Part shown: piece by piece, positions 10,292-18,176 of the stretch
Layout of the letters: every line of letters begins with the position of its first letter
Numbering within the stretch: the first letter of the stretch is position 1
Assembly: GCF_010548375.1 (NCBI RefSeq)
Contig: NZ_JAAGLY010000008.1
Coordinates: 62,001-126,000, forward strand
DNA from: Streptomyces sp. SID13726
GTDB lineage: Bacteria > Actinomycetota > Actinomycetes > Streptomycetales > Streptomycetaceae
DNA: 64,000 nucleotides
Direction: 5' to 3'
The notes under the pieces: model-generated
Told to the model about the DNA's origin: nothing
The model's input: only the letters and a program-made list of their open reading frames with translations
Database searches by the model: none
Translations under genes and position numbers: made by a program

Positions 10292-11596
10292 GTGGGTACC
10301 GATCTCTGTCCGGTGTGCGGGACGCGGCTCGCGGGGCGGGATGGGCGGACCGGTCGTAGTTCCGTGTACTGCTCCGCCGCCTGTCGGCAGAAGGCGTACC
10401 GGGAGCGGCATCGGCCGCAGGGCCGCACCGTGCAGGGGCTCATCGACGACATCGGGCGCCAGGCCGGGCTACTGGCGACGAGGCCTGTCGGCGCGCTCTA
10501 CGACACCGTGAGCGAACTGTCCGTCTCCGTGGCCCGGTTGAGGCGGGTCGCGCGGGCGGTCCGGGACACCGGCGGGGATTCCGTCACGCCGGACAACGTG
10601 ACGGAACCGGCCGGCGGCGAGCCCGACTTCGGCGCCCTCACCGAGCGGTACCGCCGAGAGATCCAGGTGCACTGCTACCGCATGACGGGCTCCTACGACG
10701 AGGCCGAGGACCTGGTCCAGGAGACGTTCCTGCGGGCCTGGCGGGCGTGGGGCGGGTTTCAGGGGCGGGCGAGCGCGCGGATCTGGCTGTACCGGATCGC
10801 CACCAACGCCTGTCTGGACCTGCTGCGGCGGACCGCGCGCCGGCCCCGGCGGTACGAGCCGGTGCCGGGGATGCGGCACGGGGACGGTGAACCGCCCGTC
10901 CGCGTCACCTGGTTGCAGCCCTACCCCGACGACGAGATGCCCCTAGCCGACGAGCATGAGCGGCCGGAGTCCGCCGCCGTGTCCCGCGAGACGCTGGAGC
11001 TGGTGCTCCTCGCCGCGATCCAGCACCTGCCCCCGCGCCAGCGGGCCGCCCTTGTCCTGCGGGACGCACTCGGACTGACCGCCGCCGAGACCGCCGAGGC
11101 CATGGACACCAGCGTGGCCTCGGTCAACAGCGCCCTCCAGCGGGCCCGGCCCGCCCTGCGCGAACAGCTGCCCCGGCAGCGCGCCGACTGGCGGACCACC
11201 GTGCCCACGGAGGGCCAACGGGCCGTACTGGACCGGTACATGGCCGCCGTCGGACACCTCGACCTCGACGCGACGGCCGCGCTGCTCGCCGAGGACGTCA
11301 CGCTCACCATGCCGCCGAACCCGTTCTGGTTCACCGGCCGGGAGGCCTTCCTCGACTTCGTGCGGGCCGGCCTCGACCCCGCCGCCCCGACGTTCCTCGG
11401 CCACCGGCGCAGCGTGCCCACCCGCGCCAACGGCCAGCTGGCGGCCGCGAATTACGTCCGCCGACCGGGTACGAGCGTCTACCGGGCCCAGGTCCTGGAC
11501 GTCCTGCGCTTCGACGACCACGACGACCGGATCGCCGAGATCACCTCCTTCGAACCGCACCTCTTCCCGGCGTTCGGGCTGCCCCTGCGGCTCTGA
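10292..11596 (+). CDS. SigG-like ECF sigma factor with N-terminal zinc finger and C-terminal NTF2-like domain
   Basis: RNA polymerase sigma factor of 434 residues in three parts. Residues 1-40 carry CPVCG...YCSAACRQKAYRERH, a C-x2-C/C-x3-C zinc-finger-like element. Residues about 110-295 hold sigma regions 2 and 4 (YRMTGSYDEAEDLVQETFLRAW; HLPPRQRAALVLRD; SVNSALQRAR). Residues about 310-430 form a SnoaL/NTF2-like domain (FWFTGREAFLDFVR, ending FEPHLFPAFGLP). The WLQPYPD motif between regions 2 and 4 and the NTF2-like tail match mycobacterial SigG-type factors, where the C-domain modulates activity in place of an anti-sigma factor. GGAGG 6 nt before GTG 10292 supports translation of the zinc finger as part of this protein. 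Confidence 0.88.
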   Translation: MGTDLCPVCGTRLAGRDGRTGRSSVYCSAACRQKAYRERHRPQGRTVQGLIDDIGRQAGLLATRPVGALYDTVSELSVSVARLRRVARAVRDTGGDSVTPDNVTEPAGGEPDFGALTERYRREIQVHCYRMTGSYDEAEDLVQETFLRAWRAWGGFQGRASARIWLYRIATNACLDLLRRTARRPRRYEPVPGMRHGDGEPPVRVTWLQPYPDDEMPLADEHERPESAAVSRETLELVLLAAIQHLPPRQRAALVLRDALGLTAAETAEAMDTSVASVNSALQRARPALREQLPRQRADWRTTVPTEGQRAVLDRYMAAVGHLDLDATAALLAEDVTLTMPPNPFWFTGREAFLDFVRAGLDPAAPTFLGHRRSVPTRANGQLAAANYVRRPGTSVYRAQVLDVLRFDDHDDRIAEITSFEPHLFPAFGLPLRL

Positions 11597-11629
11597 CGAC
11601 GGGCGGCCTCACCGGCACTTTCGTCAACG

Positions 11630-12799
11630 CTACGGGCGGGACGGCCCGCGCCCCCGCCACCAGGTCCGCAGCCACAGCGCGTGCAGACCGCCGAGCGTGA
11701 CGACCACGGCGAGTCCGTCGAGCCGGTCCGAAGTCGCCCGCCCGGGGCCCAACTTGGCCACCGCCCGCGCGAGGAGCGTGATGTCCGCGGGCAGGGTGAT
11801 GGCGGCGAAGAACGTGAGACACAGCGCGGTGCCCACGACGAGCACCACGCTGTACACGCGCACGGCCCGCCGTTCGTGCGCGGGCAGTTCGAGGCTGGGG
11901 TCCTCGGCGCCCGTACGACGGTCGGGGCGCCGCAGCAGTCGCCGGGCCCGGTAGCGCGTGTACGCCACCCCGTCCCCGAAGAGGTCGCGGCAGCGCGTGA
12001 GGTCCTGGAGGACGAAGTACAGGTCGGTGCGCATGAAGACCATGAGCTGGAAAGGGAGCGGGAGCAGCGCGAGCAGGGCCACGGCGGCGAGGACACGGCG
12101 GGGTGTGCCGGTGGTAGCGCCCGCGGCCAGCCCGGCCAGGGACGCGACCGTCACGTTGGTCGCGATACCGGCGAGATAGGCGGTCAACCGGTGGCGGCGC
12201 GGGGCGAGTTCGATACCGCTGATGTCCGTCTGCATCACCAGGAACTGCAACCGGGTGCCCAACCGCATCCGGCCCGCCACGCCCGTCGCGCGGGCGGTCA
12301 GCAGATGGGCGCACTCGTGGAGCAGCAGCAGGCCCCAACCGACGCCGGCGCCCAGGGCGATGACCGCGCTGCCGTGCGAACTCCACAGCAGCGTGCGGTA
12401 GTCGAGCGGGACGGGCGGCCGGGTGAGCAGGGTGAACGCGACCAGGAGGACGACCGCCACGGGGACCACGGAACTGAGCAGCCAACGCACATGACGGGGC
12501 CGTATCCGTGCCAACGTCGGTGCGGGCGGCGGCTCCTGGTCGACCGGACGCCCGTCGACCTCCGCGACGAACCCGAGTCCCAGCAGGGCCTCCACGAAGT
12601 CCGGTACGTCGATGTCGTCACCGGTGCCGACGCGCAGCCGTTCGCCGACCTCGGCCGGGGTGAGGCCCTGGCCGAGGAGGTCGAGGGCCTGCTTGCCGAC
12701 CTCGGGCAGGGCGACGAAGCGGCCGGTCGCCATCCGGCCCACGATCCACTCGTCGCCGTCGGGGCGGGAGTCCAGGGCGTGCAGCCGTACCCGGTTCAC
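11630..12799 (-). CDS. M50-type membrane metalloprotease with PqqD/RRE-like N-terminus
   Basis: Polytopic membrane protein of 389 residues. The zinc-protease motif H-E-C-A-H is at 161-165, at the end of a hydrophobic helix, and about five further hydrophobic segments follow; this fits a site-2-protease-like (M50) peptide zinc metalloprotease such as YydH. The first 90 residues are soluble: a VGRMATGRFVALP-type beta element, an acidic helix and DFVEALLGLGFV, resembling PqqD-like wing-helix RiPP recognition elements. GTG at 12799 overlaps the stop of the ThiF gene (GTGA), so the two are translationally coupled. Likely role in this locus: leader-peptide cleavage or processing at the membrane. 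That role is inferred from context. Confidence 0.78.
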   Translation of the reverse strand: MNRVRLHALDSRPDGDEWIVGRMATGRFVALPEVGKQALDLLGQGLTPAEVGERLRVGTGDDIDVPDFVEALLGLGFVAEVDGRPVDQEPPPAPTLARIRPRHVRWLLSSVVPVAVVLLVAFTLLTRPPVPLDYRTLLWSSHGSAVIALGAGVGWGLLLLHECAHLLTARATGVAGRMRLGTRLQFLVMQTDISGIELAPRRHRLTAYLAGIATNVTVASLAGLAAGATTGTPRRVLAAVALLALLPLPFQLMVFMRTDLYFVLQDLTRCRDLFGDGVAYTRYRARRLLRRPDRRTGAEDPSLELPAHERRAVRVYSVVLVVGTALCLTFFAAITLPADITLLARAVAKLGPGRATSDRLDGLAVVVTLGGLHALWLRTWWRGRGPSRP

Positions 12800-13980
12800 C
12801 CGCGGTCCCCGCACGCCGGGCAGTCCAGGAGGCGCGGGGCGCGGTGGTGCACCTGGTCGCCGGGCAGCATCAGGTTCACCCCGAACCGGAAACCCGGCTC
12901 CAGCGCGGGCACCCCGGTCAGCAGGGCGAGCGCGGTGTGGGCCAGCAGTGCCCCGGACAGCCCGGCGGTCACGGCGCTCGCCGGGTTCCACGGCATCCGG
13001 GGCGAGGCCACCTCCGGGTCCTGCCCCGGCCCGAGCCGCAGATCCCGCCGGGCGATCTCCCCGGCCCGCAGACACTCCCAGCAGGCCCCCTGCCCGGGCA
13101 CATACACCCCGGCGGTCACCAACGGCCCCCGGTAACCGGCGTCCACCCACGGCAACCCGGCGTCCAGACACACCCGGTTGGTCCACCGACGGAGGTCGTC
13201 GGGACGGTCGGCGCCCTGGGCGAGGAGGTCGTAGGCGGGCGCGGTTGCCGGGGTGCCCACCGGCCCAGAGTCACGCCCCGCCCCCAACCCCCGCACCAAC
13301 TCCCCCAGATCCCCGACCCCCCGAACCTCCCTCCGTTCCCCCGTCACCGTCACATCCGAGTTCAGGCCGCGCAGAGTCCCCACCGCGCTCTCCACCTTCG
13401 GCCGCCCGATGTCCCGTTCGCGATACAGAGGCTGGCGGTTGAGGTTGGAGAGTTCGACCACGTCCGGGTCGACGCAGTGGACGTGGCCGATGCCCGAGGC
13501 GACCAGGGACTGGGCCGCGTGGCCGCCCGTGCCGCCGACGCCGATGAGGAGGACGCGGGCCTCGCGCAGGCGGAGTTGGGCGTCCCAGGGGCTGGTGCGG
13601 GGGGTGAGGTCCATCCAGCGGAGCAGCGGGACGCCGCGGCTGTAGCGGTCCTCCTCACGCGGCGGCACCGGCACCGCCGCGAGCGCGTCGTCCACGAATC
13701 CGGCGGCCAGCAGGTCCGCCATCGCCTGGTCGGCGTCCTCGGCGGGCAGGCCGGGGTGGCCGCGCAGGACCTCGGCGACCACCTCGGCCGGTCCCCGCGA
13801 CCCGTCCATCGACTCGACCAGCGTCCACACCCAGCCCTGCGGGTCGGCGATCTCCGCGCCGATGCCGTGGACGACGCTGCCGATCCGGACGTTGCCGTCG
13901 ACCGTGCGGTACGCGCGGTGCTCCGGCTTGATCCGGGGCCGCCGCAACGCCCCGACCGTCACTGCGGCCGCCTCCGTCAT
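12796..13980 (-). CDS. ThiF/E1-like adenylyltransferase with RRE-like N-domain
   Basis: Protein of 394 residues. The ATP-binding Rossmann loop GVGGTGG is at 147-153, followed by DPDVVELSNLNRQ, the signature of ThiF/MoeB/HesA/ubiquitin-E1 enzymes that adenylate a peptide C-terminus or carboxylate. Structural zinc cysteines are present as C-W-E-C and, at the end, C-P-A-C. Residues about 20-100 (HRAYRTVDGNVRIG through LLAAGFVDD) look like the PqqD-like/RRE N-domain seen in bacteriocin cyclodehydratase-type E1 proteins (TIGR03882-like). No YcaO partner is encoded here. It is divergent from two short peptide genes 124 bp away and coupled to an M50 protease. Its substrate is most simply one or both of those peptides; this is inference. 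Confidence 0.85.
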   Translation of the reverse strand: MTEAAAVTVGALRRPRIKPEHRAYRTVDGNVRIGSVVHGIGAEIADPQGWVWTLVESMDGSRGPAEVVAEVLRGHPGLPAEDADQAMADLLAAGFVDDALAAVPVPPREEDRYSRGVPLLRWMDLTPRTSPWDAQLRLREARVLLIGVGGTGGHAAQSLVASGIGHVHCVDPDVVELSNLNRQPLYRERDIGRPKVESAVGTLRGLNSDVTVTGERREVRGVGDLGELVRGLGAGRDSGPVGTPATAPAYDLLAQGADRPDDLRRWTNRVCLDAGLPWVDAGYRGPLVTAGVYVPGQGACWECLRAGEIARRDLRLGPGQDPEVASPRMPWNPASAVTAGLSGALLAHTALALLTGVPALEPGFRFGVNLMLPGDQVHHRAPRLLDCPACGDRG

Positions 13981-14104
13981 CAGGGCCCCCTACCCGTCCC
14001 ACGTACACCTCCTTGACACTCTGACCCCCTCGGCACAGCCTTGACAAGAGCGGTCACCGATCGCTTCGGAAAGGTCAAATCCCGTACGAAGATGAGGAGT
14101 TGGT
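13981..14104. promoter_or_regulatory. Divergent control region of the candidate RiPP locus
   Basis: This 124-bp gap separates the ThiF start from the first peptide. Two identical TTGACA hexamers lie 28 bp apart, at 14013-14018 and 14041-14046, both reading toward the peptides; neither has a convincing -10 at 17-18 bp. TTGAC (14041) and GTCAA (14074) also form an inverted repeat. GAGGAG at 14094-14099 is the ribosome binding site of peptide 1. I regard the region as promoter-bearing but cannot fix a start site. Confidence 0.4.
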
Positions 14105-14182
14105 GTGCCCACCAAGATCGTGATCCGCCCGTTGGACAAGAAGGAGACCACCGGCGAGAGCGGCGGCAACGGCGGCAGCTGA
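14105..14182 (+). CDS. Candidate RiPP precursor peptide 1 (25 residues)
   Basis: GTG start with a near-perfect ribosome binding site, GAGGAG, 5 nt upstream. The peptide begins with (M)PTKIVIRPLDKKETTG and ends ESGGNGGS. It shares an almost identical N-terminal 18 residues with the next ORF but differs at the C-terminus and in length, the pattern of conserved leader plus variable core. The mix of IVIRPL and DKKETT with a Gly/Ser/Asn tail is not a class I recognise: there is no Cys, and no lasso, lanthipeptide or azole core pattern. Thr and Asp/Glu/Lys side chains and the C-terminal Ser are the reactive groups on offer. It is too short for routine gene callers. Confidence 0.75.
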   Translation: MPTKIVIRPLDKKETTGESGGNGGS

Positions 14183-14193
14183 GAGGACCTCAC

Positions 14194-14268
14194 ATGCCCA
14201 TCAAGATCGTGATTCGCCCGCTGGACAAGAAGGAGACCACTGGGGACAGTAACTCCCAGGGTGCCTGA
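14194..14268 (+). CDS. Candidate RiPP precursor peptide 2 (24 residues)
   Basis: ATG start with AGGA 6 nt upstream, only 11 nt after the stop of peptide 1. It reads (M)PIKIVIRPLDKKETTG then DSNSQGA. The shared segment is conserved at protein level although several codons differ (for example ATC/ATT, TTG/CTG and ACC/ACT at equivalent positions), which suggests selection on the amino-acid sequence rather than a very recent copy. A GTG at 14261 overlaps its stop, and the carboxypeptidase start with the better ribosome site follows 28 nt after the stop, so peptides and peptidase are almost certainly one transcript. Confidence 0.77.
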   Translation: MPIKIVIRPLDKKETTGDSNSQGA

Positions 14269-14296
14269 GCGGTCGATCAGCGTTCGGAGGGCCGGC

Positions 14297-15547
14297 GTGC
14301 GGACTTCGCTCTATCCGACAGTCGACGAGTTGGAGCGAAGGGCCCGCACGCTGGCCCGCGCGGCCCCCGGCAGGCTGCGGCTGAGGCAGGCCGGGGAGAG
14401 CAGGGCGGGCCGCCCGCTGTGGCTGCTGTCCGCGGGACACGGTGAGCGCCAGATCCTCACCGTCGCCGGGGCCCACGCCAACGAACCGGTGGGCGGCGCA
14501 TCGGCCCTGCGGCTCGCCGCCCTCTTTGCCCGCAGGCCGGGACTGCTCGAACAGCTCGGCTGCACCTGGCACTTCCTGCTCTGCCTCGACCCGGACGGGG
14601 CCCGGCTCGCGCACGGCTGGCAACCGGAGGAACCGGCACCGTCGCTGACGGAGTGTCACCGTTTCTTCTACCGGCCCGCGTTCGCCCGCCAGCCGGAGTC
14701 CCTGCCCGCGCCGCCCGGCGCACCGCTGCCCGAGTCGGCCGCGCTCCTGCGGCTCCTGGACGAACTGCGGCCCGTCGCCCAGTTCACCCTGCACGGCATC
14801 GAGTTCGGCGGTGCCTTCATGATGATGACGCGGGAGGTGCCGGGCGCGGCCCGCGCCTTCCGGGAGACGGCGGCCCAACTGCGCGTCCCCGTCGACCTCC
14901 ACCCCGTCGACGGCCCCGACTGGCGGCTCGACCCGCCCGGGGTCCTGCTGCTGCCCGACGGCCACGGCGCGGGCGAACGCGACCCGAGCGGATACGTCGC
15001 CGACAGCACCTGGTTCCACCCGCGCCGCCACGGCACCGCGACCGTGCTGATCGAGACCCCCGCCTGGGCCGTGCCCGCGATGAGCGACGCGCGGCCCGTC
15101 ACCGACCCGTACGCCGAGATCGCCCGGATCGGCGAGGTGCTGCTGGGGCGGATCAGGGAGGTCACGGACGTACTCGGGGAACGGCCCGGCATCGTCGTAC
15201 CGGAGGAACTGGCGCCGCTGCACGACGCGGCGCGGGAGCTGGTCGAGGTGGCGCCGTCGATCGTCGAGACCTGGGCCGGTGAGGAACCCGGCCGGTTCCG
15301 GGGGCACTTCGCGGCCCTCGGCATCTCGGCCCGCCGGATTCCGCTGCGGGTGGCGGCGATGACGGGCCGCGCCCTGGCCCGCGGCGCCCCCGAGACCGCC
15401 GAGATCCTCGGCAACCTGGTGCGCGAATGGAGCCAGGAGCTGGAGAAGACGTACGACCTGCGCTGGGTGCCGGTGTCCGCGCAGACCGGACTTCAGGTGC
15501 GCACGATGCTGAACACGGCGGCGCTGATGTGCGCGGAGGGCGGGTGA
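14297..15547 (+). CDS. M14-type zinc carboxypeptidase / succinylglutamate-desuccinylase-like enzyme
   Basis: Soluble protein of 416 residues. Zinc ligands of the M14 fold are visible: His60 and Glu63 in GAHANEPVGG, and His166 in FTLHGIEFGG. The likely catalytic Glu is about 253 in IETPAW. It has no signal peptide, so it acts in the cytoplasm. GTG 14297 is chosen because GGAGGG lies 5 nt upstream; the frame stays open to GTG 14261, which overlaps the peptide-2 stop. Next to two precursor-like peptides, an E1-like enzyme and an M50 protease, it probably trims residues from the C-terminus or removes an acyl/aminoacyl group from the peptide product. Family members otherwise act on amino-acid conjugates, so a catabolic role is the alternative. 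Confidence 0.8.
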   Translation: MRTSLYPTVDELERRARTLARAAPGRLRLRQAGESRAGRPLWLLSAGHGERQILTVAGAHANEPVGGASALRLAALFARRPGLLEQLGCTWHFLLCLDPDGARLAHGWQPEEPAPSLTECHRFFYRPAFARQPESLPAPPGAPLPESAALLRLLDELRPVAQFTLHGIEFGGAFMMMTREVPGAARAFRETAAQLRVPVDLHPVDGPDWRLDPPGVLLLPDGHGAGERDPSGYVADSTWFHPRRHGTATVLIETPAWAVPAMSDARPVTDPYAEIARIGEVLLGRIREVTDVLGERPGIVVPEELAPLHDAARELVEVAPSIVETWAGEEPGRFRGHFAALGISARRIPLRVAAMTGRALARGAPETAEILGNLVREWSQELEKTYDLRWVPVSAQTGLQVRTMLNTAALMCAEGG

Positions 15548-15602: not shown

Positions 15603-18176
15603 CTACTGCGCCTGCGCGTCCGCCGCCTGGGCCTTCAGCGCGCGCTCCACGCCCGAGCGGGACTCGGAGACGAGGCGGCGCAGGGCCGCGTTCGGCTCGG
15701 CCGTGGTCAGCCAGGCGTCCGTGCGGTCCAGGGTGTCCTGGGAGACCTGGAGCGACGGGTAGAGGCCGACCGCGATCTGCTGGGCGATCTCGTGCGAGCG
15801 GGACTCCCAGATGTCCTTGACGACCTCGAAGTACCGTTCCGTGTACGGCGCGAGCAGCTCCCGCTGGTCGGTCTGGACGAAGCCGCCGATGACGGCCTCC
15901 TGGACGGCGTTCGGCAGCTTGTCGGACTCGACGACCTGCGCCCAGGCCTCCGCCTTGGCCTCCTCGGTCGGCCGGGACGCCCGGGCGGTCGCCGCGTGGC
16001 GCTCACCGGCGGCCGTCCTGTCCCGCTCGTACTCGCCGGCGATCTCCGACTCGTCGTAGCGGCCCACCGCGGCCAGCCGCTGTACGAACGCCCAGCGCAG
16101 CTCGGTGTCGACGGCCAGGCCCTCGACGGTCTGGGACCCGTCCAGCAGGCCCTCCAGGAGGTCCAGCTGCTCCGGCGTACGGGCCGTCGCCGCGAACGCC
16201 CGCGCCCACGCCAGCTGGTGGTCGCTGCCCGCCGCCGAGGACCGCAGATGGGCCAGCGTGGCGTCGGTCCAGCGGGTCAGCAGGGCCTCGCGGGCGGTGG
16301 GGGCGGCGTACAGCTCGATCGCCAGCTTCACCTGCCGGTGCAGCGACTGCACGACACCGATGTCGGACTCCTTGCCGATGCCGGACAGCACCAGGGACAG
16401 GTAGTCGCGGGTGGCCAGTTCGGCGTCACGCGTCATGTCCCAGGCCGACGCCCAGCACAGGGCGCGCGGCAGCGAGGACTCGAAGTCGCCGAGGTGCTCG
16501 GTGACGAAGGCCAGCGACTGCTCGTCGAGGCGGACCTTGGCGTACGACAGGTCGTCGTCGTTCAGGAGCACCACCGCGGGACGGCGCTTGCCGACCAGCT
16601 GCGGTACGGCCGTCAGCTCGCCGTCGACGTCCAGCTCCACGCGCTCGTCGCGCACCAACTTGCCGCTGTCGTCGTCGAGTTCGTACAGGCCGACCGCGAT
16701 CCGGTGCGGGCGCAGCGTCGGCTCGCCCTTGGCGCCGGCGGGCAGGGCCGGGGCCTCCTGGCGGATCGCGAAGGAGGTGATGACACCCTCGGCGTCCGTC
16801 TCGATCTCCGGGCGCAGGATGTTGATGCCGGCGGTCTGGAGCCATTTCTCCGACCAGTTCTTCAGGTCGCGCCCGGAGGTCTCCTCCAGCGCGCCCAGCA
16901 GGTCGGACAGGCGGGTGTTGCCGAACGCGTGGCGCTTGAAGTACGCCTGCACGCCGCCGAAGAACTCGTCCATGCCGACGTAGGCGACGAGCTGCTTGAG
17001 GACGCTGGCGCCCTTGGCGTACGTGATGCCGTCGAAGTTGACGAGGACGTCGTCGAGGTCGTTGATCTCGGCCATGATCGGGTGGGTGGACGGCAGTTGG
17101 TCCTGCCGGTAGGCCCACGTCTTCATGGAGTTGGCGAAGGTCGTCCAGGAGTGCGGCCAGCGGGAGCCGGGGTGGTACGCCTGGCAGGCGATGGAGGTGT
17201 AGGTGGCGAACGACTCGTTCAGCCACAGGTCGTTCCACCACTCCATGGTCACGAGGTCGCCGAACCACATGTGGGCCAGCTCGTGCAGGATGGTCTCGGC
17301 GCGGACCTCGTACGCGGCGTCCGTCACCTTGGACCGGAAGACGTACTGGTCGCGGATGGTCACCGCGCCGGCGTTCTCCATCGCGCCCGCGTTGAACTCC
17401 GGGACGAACAGCTGGTCGTACTTCTTGAACGGGTACGCGTAGTCGAACTTCTCCTGGAACCACTCGAAGCCCTGCCGGGTCACCTCGAAGATGGCGTCCG
17501 AGTCGAGGTGTTCGGCGAGCGAGGGACGGCAGTAGATGCCCAGCGGCACGGACTGGCCGTCCTTCTCGTACACGCTGTGCACGGAGTGGTACGGGCCGAC
17601 GATCAGCGCGGTGATGTACGACGAGATCCGCGGGGTCGGCTCGAAGGTCCAGACATCGTCCTTCGGTTCCGGCGTCGGGGAGTTCGAGATGACCGTCCAG
17701 CCGGTCGGCGCCTTCACGGTGAACTGGAAGGTGGCCTTCAGATCGGGCTGCTCGAAGGAGGCGAACACCCGGCGGGCGTCCGGCACCTCGAACTGGGTGT
17801 ACAGGTACGCCTGCTCGTCCACCGGGTCGACGAAGCGGTGCAGGCCCTCACCGGTGTTGGTGTAGGCGGCGTCGGCGACGACCCGCAGGATGTTGCGGCC
17901 CTCCAGCAGACCGCGCAGCGCGATCCGGGAGTCCGCGAAGACCTCCGCGGGGTCCAGGGCGTCCCCGTTCAGCGTGACCTCGTGGACCGTGGGGGCCACC
18001 AGGTCGATGAAGGACTCGGCGCCTTTCCCGGCGACGTCGAAGCGCACCGTGGTCACGGACCGGTAGGTACCGCCCTCCTGCGCGCCGGAGAGGTCGAGAT
18101 CGATCTCGTAGGACTCGACGCTCAGCAGCTTCGCGCGCTGCTGGGCCTCTTCGCGAGTCAGGTTTGTGCCAGGCAC
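15603..18176 (-). CDS. pepN: Aminopeptidase N (M1 family)
   Basis: Zinc aminopeptidase of 857 residues that removes N-terminal residues from peptides in the cytoplasm. The exopeptidase motif GAMENAG is followed by the zinc motif HELAHMWFGD beginning at residue 298, with the third ligand Glu in WLNESFATY. A long helical C-terminal domain (ERAP1-like) follows. There is no signal peptide. Length and motif order match actinobacterial PepN. GTG 18176 has GAGGAG about 9 nt upstream. It is transcribed alone, convergent with the candidate RiPP operon. Confidence 0.96.
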   Translation of the reverse strand: MPGTNLTREEAQQRAKLLSVESYEIDLDLSGAQEGGTYRSVTTVRFDVAGKGAESFIDLVAPTVHEVTLNGDALDPAEVFADSRIALRGLLEGRNILRVVADAAYTNTGEGLHRFVDPVDEQAYLYTQFEVPDARRVFASFEQPDLKATFQFTVKAPTGWTVISNSPTPEPKDDVWTFEPTPRISSYITALIVGPYHSVHSVYEKDGQSVPLGIYCRPSLAEHLDSDAIFEVTRQGFEWFQEKFDYAYPFKKYDQLFVPEFNAGAMENAGAVTIRDQYVFRSKVTDAAYEVRAETILHELAHMWFGDLVTMEWWNDLWLNESFATYTSIACQAYHPGSRWPHSWTTFANSMKTWAYRQDQLPSTHPIMAEINDLDDVLVNFDGITYAKGASVLKQLVAYVGMDEFFGGVQAYFKRHAFGNTRLSDLLGALEETSGRDLKNWSEKWLQTAGINILRPEIETDAEGVITSFAIRQEAPALPAGAKGEPTLRPHRIAVGLYELDDDSGKLVRDERVELDVDGELTAVPQLVGKRRPAVVLLNDDDLSYAKVRLDEQSLAFVTEHLGDFESSLPRALCWASAWDMTRDAELATRDYLSLVLSGIGKESDIGVVQSLHRQVKLAIELYAAPTAREALLTRWTDATLAHLRSSAAGSDHQLAWARAFAATARTPEQLDLLEGLLDGSQTVEGLAVDTELRWAFVQRLAAVGRYDESEIAGEYERDRTAAGERHAATARASRPTEEAKAEAWAQVVESDKLPNAVQEAVIGGFVQTDQRELLAPYTERYFEVVKDIWESRSHEIAQQIAVGLYPSLQVSQDTLDRTDAWLTTAEPNAALRRLVSESRSGVERALKAQAADAQAQ

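Follow-up and report, generated by a model that had tools for sequence, protein, structure and literature searches.

Ribosomally synthesised and post-translationally modified peptides (RiPPs) whose ThiF-like enzymes are fused to a RiPP recognition element (RRE) and act without YcaO form a recognised group (PMC12150305 and the accessible part of PMC12250964). The chemistries described so far are few (phosphoramidate, pantocin bicycle, thiolactone, imide and indolylamide), and the examples covered in review are from Bacillota and Pseudomonadota; the accessible part of a 2025 review (PMC12250964) names neither Streptomyces nor actinomycetes. EnfB and IndF adenylate the C-terminal carboxylate of their peptides, and the published IndF model places the motif on the RRE and the C-terminus at the ATP site, across the dimer. 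Substrates of MccB, the microcin C enzyme, are conserved in length, free in sequence and modified at the C-terminus, and the N-P bond of microcin C requires a C-terminal Asn on the precursor (both from the accessible part of PMC6495379); in the excerpts available, MccB precursors mostly have 7-8 residues, with a minor clade of 17-56. Here we describe a gene cluster of Streptomyces sp. SID13726, located in a window (the whole stretch of DNA that was analysed) of 64,000 nucleotides, i.e. positions 62,001-126,000 of the forward strand of NZ_JAAGLY010000008.1 (assembly GCF_010548375.1). It encodes an E1-like (ThiF-type) enzyme, two micro-ORFs (very short open reading frames) and two putative metalloproteases, and looks like a real, hitherto unstudied actinobacterial route to small modified peptides. 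What is new here is a nearly fixed distance from a conserved motif to the peptide C-terminus, kept despite varying tail sequence and leader length.

The E1 adenylating enzyme of the ThiF/MccB/PaaA type (394 residues; 12796-13980, minus strand; PF00899 E 6.8e-39) is followed on the same strand by a membrane metalloprotease resembling the M50 (site-2 protease) type (389 residues; 11630-12799; HECAH and RTDLYFVLQD motifs), whose GTG start overlaps the thiF stop as GTGA (12799-12796). Divergently from these lie, in tandem on the plus strand, the putative precursor peptides 1 (MPTKIVIRPLDKKETTGESGGNGGS, 25 residues, GTG start, 14105-14182; recognised by family conservation, genome match E 3.6e-12) and 2 (MPIKIVIRPLDKKETTGDSNSQGA, 24 residues, ATG start, 14194-14268; genome match E 2.8e-12), which have a common motif and different tails. 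They are preceded by the purine-rich ribosome sites GAGGAG and GAGAGGA, respectively. An M14 carboxypeptidase-like zinc peptidase (416 residues; 14297-15547, plus strand; PF00246 E 2.2e-9) completes the cluster; its preferred start is the GTG at 14297, behind GGAGGG, as the alternative at 14261 would run into micro-ORF 2. The layout of four gene types reported in the first-pass annotation, which was made from the sequence of this window, was thus found where it had been placed, including the gene overlap, the HECAH motif, the divergent tandem micro-ORFs and their strong ribosome sites.

To describe the family we used the best 80 of 549 ThiF relatives in named genomes, for which 12 aligned ThiF proteins served as the query (loci and genomes are cited below by our L and G numbers). 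Their sources include Streptomyces, Actinacidiphila, Kitasatospora, Nocardia, Actinoallomurus, Glycomyces, Verrucosispora, Microbispora, Sphaerimonospora, Sphaerisporangium, Nonomuraea, Planotetraspora and Amycolatopsis, as well as some metagenome bins. In 77 of the 80 loci a motif-bearing short reading frame lies no further than 1.6 kb from the ThiF homolog, a count that treats L097, L104 and L041 (contig edge) as misses; this is the pairing that the first-pass annotation had proposed to look for in other genomes. One regular expression gives 84 matches in 73 loci, all no more than 1,534 bp from ThiF and none beyond 3 kb (1.56 Mb); having been derived from the same 80 loci, it tests place rather than discovery. 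Wider scans bring the four extra loci, and a looser expression also gives a few matches to unrelated frames. Across 64 distinct 36-base blocks, the first and second codon positions of the conserved motif residues are nearly constant and the third is variable, a pattern that identifies both micro-ORFs as real coding sequences. The peptide may lie upstream or downstream of ThiF, in the same direction or divergently.

Among 150 genomes of the genus of the window, searched for ThiF relatives and with a 38-peptide profile (E <= 0.01), 15 encode a close ThiF (E <= 1e-80) and one, G088, a ThiF at 1.5e-52; a more distant ThiF clade occurs in four genomes (E 1e-30 to 1e-36). The peptide profile matches 18 genomes, i.e. 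all 15 with the close ThiF (members of this subfamily devoid of the peptide, which would have told against the pairing, did not appear), G088 (E 0.009, adjoining its ThiF), G027 and G132. The peptide is therefore present in 16/16 genomes with ThiF at E <= 1e-50 versus 2/134 others, both with a damaged motif, and the system has an accessory distribution, residing in about one-tenth of the genomes of the genus. At class level, ThiF (E <= 1e-60) was found in 8 of 296 genomes, the peptide (E <= 0.001) in 7 and both in 6; the exceptions are G088, with its weaker peptide, and G390, with a candidate recognised by eye only, and the negatives are weak ones, since these searches scored 25 and 6 candidates per genome.

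In three genomes ThiF has apparently been lost and the peptide is damaged. In G027 and G132 the peptide, with its motif Leu changed to Pro, adjoins an M14 gene, which in G027 is reduced to a remnant, and neither ThiF nor M50 was found in the surrounding 13 kb and 9.5 kb, respectively. In G349 an M14 gene adjoins a peptide whose normal start is lost, and ThiF was found neither nearby nor at E <= 1e-60. In locus terms, this damage is Leu to Pro in L111 and L113 and the lack of a normal start in L119. Such decay, together with the conservation of the peptides beside the E1 gene and the retention of the motif while the tail varies, suggests that the micro-ORFs very probably encode the substrates of the E1-like enzyme, as the first-pass annotation had supposed. 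A separate observation concerns the edge of the cluster: the end of the M50 gene in the window (11611-11639) contains a short stretch resembling the 3' end of a short-chain dehydrogenase/reductase gene (GTFVNATGG), of which L119 has, by eye, a fuller version directly 5' of the peptide, an arrangement that a deletion of the thiF-M50 part could have left behind. Large plasmids from Streptomyces, Actinacidiphila and Nocardia (L138, L139 and L140) also carry the system, with Cys-bearing tails; four of four independent plasmid-collection records contain ThiF, M50 and a peptide, the last being missing from their (incomplete) gene tables.

The ThiF protein is a full-length E1 of the MccB/PaaA type with a predicted RRE-like domain at its N-terminus. 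Its profile matches PaaA (8.9e-46) and MccB (6.2e-45) ahead of every other solved structure, and its AlphaFold2 model (predicted local distance difference test score, pLDDT, 91.6) superimposes on MccB 3h5r over 335 residues (Z 32.5, root-mean-square deviation, rmsd, 3.8; model residues 13-392) and on PaaA over 315 residues (Z 27.6, rmsd 5.0); the fold comparisons of this and of the M14 model cover the best 1000 chains of Foldseek. Invariant in 54 sequences are GxGGxG, D173, R182, Q183, K195, D258 and the Cys pairs 300/303 and 387/390, and the spacings R-K (13, as in EnfB) and Q-K (12, as in IndF) involve residues shown to matter in those enzymes. The predicted RRE-like domain (approximately residues 13-100; 13681-13944, minus strand) is modelled as three strands and three helices (strands 15-17, 31-33 and 42-44; helices 50-57, 64-74 and 80-92) and aligns in the structure comparison with the corresponding N-terminal regions of MccB and PaaA; the PaaA-like_N model scores below its cut-off (14.2 versus 27 bits). 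A ThiF fold with ATP-site residues, a fused domain predicted to be RRE-like and an adjacent conserved precursor, along with an ATP-dependent modification of that precursor, which is predicted here, are the features that define RRE-ThiF RiPP systems, and such an enzyme places the cluster among them; the earlier opinion that it does not fit the known classes finds no support in that form.

Two further roles for an E1 were considered. In the first, the enzyme would be a sulfur-carrier or cofactor E1 with neighbours gathered by chance, and the micro-ORFs would be leader-type regulatory peptides. The best NCBIfam scores of its ThiF domain are indeed those of the ThiF and MoeB models, all under cut-off; however, in 10/10 genomes the PF02597 sulfur-carrier genes are separated from ThiF by 69 kb or more, or sit on different contigs, so that the neighbouring sulfur-carrier pathway named as a counter-sign in the first-pass annotation is absent there and this role was rejected. 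As the position and direction of the peptide relative to ThiF also vary, and its codon-position pattern speaks for conservation as protein, we consider this explanation scarcely credible. In the second, the E1 would attach the peptide to other proteins in a ubiquitin-like or Pup-like manner, with M14 or M50 processing or removing the tag. The E1 fold with both Cys pairs, and a penultimate Gly in 59 of the 80 distinct peptides, would suit such tagging, but 24 residues are too few for a beta-grasp fold, no E2-like family is among the recurrent neighbours, the distribution is that of an accessory system, and the full-length match is to the peptide-modifying enzymes MccB and PaaA; tagging is thus very improbable. 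That the E1 acts on the peptide itself is a conclusion we hold with high confidence.

The precursors consist of a leader of 3-28 residues (standard deviation 7.7), the motif IxIRxL(D/E)(K/R)xETT and a tail, and have a total length of 22-47 residues. These statistics rest on 80 distinct precursors; they omit the rows L002-L030 (mostly duplicates of named genomes) save L006 and L013-L015, as well as one out-of-frame copy in L091, and the uncertain start in L032 was trimmed. Measured from the motif, the C-terminus lies at a distance of 20.3 +/- 0.6 residues (74 of the 80 peptides have 20 or 21; range 18-22). Five additional peptides agree, by eye, with a distance of 20-22 residues, as does the aberrant tail GWRVIGAGG when counted from the motif Leu. 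The tails themselves are variable: 28 distinct 8-residue tails average 31% identity, versus 68% for the 12-residue motifs, and the 45 distinct tails are 66% Gly/Ser/Asn. The last residue is S (22), A (17), N (16), T (14), G (6), R (2), D (2) or E (1), those of the window peptides being Ser and Ala. The lack of Cys noted earlier is true of the window peptides and does not extend to the family, in which the tails of 7 of the 80 distinct peptides, and of the plasmid copies too, contain it. Tandem copies (two in the window, three each in L013 and L087) have the same motif and different tails, as is usual for RiPP precursors.

The possibility that this precursor family is already catalogued was dropped: NCBIfam gave zero matches for all 38 aligned peptides, and Pfam two chance matches of one peptide each (E 0.09 and 0.12). 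DKKETTG and five further motif strings had no match in PMC text, which mostly excludes subscription papers, so that an earlier listing is possible in Figure S1 of PMC12150305, where additional uncharacterised ThiF clusters are given. L133 (2620-2697, minus strand), L104 (9921-9983, plus strand, by eye) and L106/L107 contain divergent candidate precursors, whose tails are rich in Trp/Pro or which have the ETT part of the motif only. In 14 of the 80 loci (L075, L076, L082, L095, L096, L098-L100, L102, L103, L106-L109) a DUF6879 gene lies near ThiF, and in L098, L099 and L102 a second, looser or divergent copy of the peptide stands beside it, 2.6 kb from ThiF.

A nearly fixed distance from motif to end, combined with a variable tail sequence and leader length, indicates adenylation of the C-terminal carboxylate. 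This assignment, which we judge probable, is favoured by the precedent of EnfB and IndF, by the length rule of MccB and by the logic of a two-site enzyme: with the RRE holding the motif and the ATP site holding the carboxylate, by analogy with those systems, a fixed distance would be imposed on an otherwise flexible tail. Taking this into account, we propose that the micro-ORFs encode precursor peptides whose IxIRxL(D/E)K(K/I) segment would be bound by the RRE-like domain of the E1, so that a tail of about 12 residues (ETT and the Gly/Ser/Asn-rich stretch) could extend into the active site, where ATP would adenylate the terminal carboxylate, the near-constant distance acting as a ruler. Intramolecular attack on the acyl-adenylate, most simply by Thr 10 or 11, else by Ser or Cys near position 14, might then yield a macro(thio)lactone (minus 18 Da), and the M50 membrane protease and/or the M14 carboxypeptidase-like enzyme may mature or trim the product. 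Thr, at position 10 or 11 of the motif, is the sole residue class present in 80/80 peptides, which makes a macrolactone the first guess and Ser/Cys 14 the next; the latter, present in 73/80, was not chosen as the single nucleophile. Ring closure on Thr, Ser or Cys is put forward only tentatively, while the scheme as a whole, a minimal RiPP system of the RRE-ThiF kind with C-terminal adenylation, cyclisation and maturation by proteases, seems to us the likelier account of the cluster.

Alternatively, the E1 could adenylate a side chain, that of Glu 9 or Asp 6, for attack by Lys, Thr or Ser/Cys, closing a ring of fixed size (lactam, lactone or thiolactone). Glu 9 is kept in 75/80 distinct peptides and Ser/Cys 14 nearly as often; GrcB joins an internal Glu to Cys (accessible part of PMC12250964), and PaaA, which tops the profile matches of the E1, acts on Glu in pantocin. 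Nevertheless, Glu 9 is replaced by Gln in L039, L077 and L079 and by Gly in L106 and L107 with the ThiF residues kept (the ThiF proteins of L039, L077, L079 and L107 are included in the 54-sequence alignment), and these natural variants demote it as the activated carboxylate. Asp 6 gives way to Asn or Ala in L073 and L079, and the fixed distance to the C-terminus would be left unexplained. We therefore regard side-chain activation as unlikely, though worth keeping in mind.

Both proteases retain invariant zinc ligands across their families. In the M50-like proteins H161, E162, H165, D259 and D266 are invariant in 29 sequences; PF02163 scores 18.0 bits, below its cut-off of 27.2, and one relative is annotated as a 'site-2 protease family protein'. 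A second RRE at the N-terminus of this protein is not claimed, as its comparison with the E1 N-terminus by hhalign yielded a probability of 36 in local and 0.9 in global mode. The M14 protein exceeds the PF00246 cut-off (37.8 versus 21.6 bits), its model (pLDDT 92.7) matches carboxypeptidase B 1zli (Z 24.5, rmsd 3.1, 246 residues aligned), and H60, E63, H166 and E253 are invariant in 41 sequences. Their predicted co-occurrence with the peptides was borne out in part: relatives of M50 (by profile) occur in 53/80 loci and of M14 in 49/80, with two M14 copies in 7, yet neither is a fixed component. Where ThiF is flanked by 3 kb or more on both sides (72 loci), both proteases are present in 28, M50 only in 20, M14 only in 17 (10 single, 7 double) and neither in 7; the loci with two M14 genes belong to Actinacidiphila and near relatives. 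Judged from gene content, M50 and M14 thus behave as interchangeable accessories.

This behaviour would be explained if both were carboxypeptidases serving a reusable carrier peptide, as in the pearlins: the E1 would charge the C-terminus of the tether with a small molecule or amino acid, and M14 or M50 would release the product. The fixed-length tail with its Gly/Ser/Asn content resembles a flexible linker, the M50 proteases TglG and TmoG are carboxypeptidases acting on pearlin scaffolds (accessible part of PMC10885120), and the M14 protein has a carboxypeptidase fold with an intact zinc site. Such a machine would amount to pearlin logic run by a ubiquitin-type E1 instead of aminoacyl-tRNA, with the peptide recycled. 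On the other hand, no further conserved tailoring gene accompanies the system (when reading frames of 240 residues or more lying within 5 kb were clustered, the largest other family was in 16 of the 80 loci and followed local synteny), and tandem precursors with differing tails (in the window, L013 and L087) fit a product better than a tether, which leaves this explanation rather improbable.

Against C-terminal adenylation with cyclisation it must be said that the mutual replaceability of M50 and M14 has no explanation in it, that a conserved transporter was not found among the recurrent neighbours, and that the near-invariance of Glu 9 is needless for a purely C-terminal mechanism. The fixed length could partly stem from shared ancestry, and, as Thr 10/11 adjoin the motif, the ruler cannot separate the motif-to-end from the Thr-to-end distance. 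Moreover, the divergent candidate in L133 has, by eye, no Thr at position 10 or 11, candidate peptides were not found for the ThiF copy of L097 or the second copies L136 and L137, and the peptides of L124 and L125 have no ThiF within 1.5 kb.

The literature covered also includes PMC12710340, PMC7470986, PMC1779556 and PMC10036551. Among the described systems, the cluster shares with microcin C (MccA/MccB) the full-length E1 architecture and a short precursor with a strong ribosome site, conserved in length and free in sequence, but its precursors are longer than heptapeptides and contain a conserved motif, C-terminal Asn is confined to the 16 peptides mentioned above, a conserved exporter was not found, and M50/M14 proteases are present. 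With pantocin A (PaaP/PaaA) it shares an E1 with an N-terminal peptide-binding domain; the pantocin A precursor has a Glu-Glu-Asn motif, whereas EEN occurs in 0/80 distinct precursors here, and genes and hosts differ. The enzymes EnfB (enterofaecin), IndF (indolylamide) and GrcB (thiolactone) of Bacillota are likewise RRE-ThiF proteins serving as the main modifying enzyme, and the (V/I)RKA of the EnfA leader resembles the (I/V)RxL of our precursors; unlike theirs, the tails described here lack WIVI or WYFI, the hosts are actinobacterial, and M50/M14 replace an M16 peptidase and transporter. GrcB clusters additionally contain radical S-adenosylmethionine enzymes (accessible part of PMC12250964). 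The M50 protein weakly matches the intramembrane protease of daptides (MpaP; daptide_HExxH of NCBIfam, 20.4 bits versus a cut-off of 300), but recurrent decarboxylase, aminotransferase and methyltransferase families were not seen at the loci. In pearlins, too, the peptide C-terminus is extended or processed and an M50 protein acts there (accessible part of PMC10885120); they differ in using a peptide aminoacyl-tRNA ligase in place of an E1, and no recurrent tailoring family was found here. As for azole RiPPs (thiazole/oxazole-modified microcins and linear azole-containing peptides), TIGR03882 scores 22.3 bits against a cut-off of 36.9, and no extra family exceeded 16 of the 80 loci in the neighbour clustering, in which no search with the model of YcaO itself was made.

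The intergenic region that separates thiF from the peptides contains CTTGACA twice, as direct repeats with a spacing of 28 bp (14011-14048, plus strand); both copies are unchanged in 8/8 aligned Streptomyces intergenic regions and may represent a promoter or operator. The outer neighbours are ordinary: 10292-11596 encodes an extracytoplasmic function sigma factor that carries a SnoaL domain, and 15603-18176 (minus strand) an M1 aminopeptidase. The E1 proteins of a sibling clade share about 30% identity with the ThiF of the window and have their own 19-residue peptide (e.g. MSVAMTTRKASIAGQANEG) with strong ribosome sites, located 5' of ThiF in L017 (two copies), L018 and L020; its RKA recalls the EnfA leader motif, and the clade looks like a second E1-RiPP family of Streptomyces.

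The family described in this study supplies many precursor-enzyme pairs in culturable actinobacteria. It also brings a length rule that is open to testing, peptides in which Glu is naturally replaced by Gln, and natural cases of enzyme loss. Such material would reveal if E1-type RiPP enzymes take the recognition motif as the point from which the substrate is measured, and what roles M14 and M50 proteases play in one pathway.

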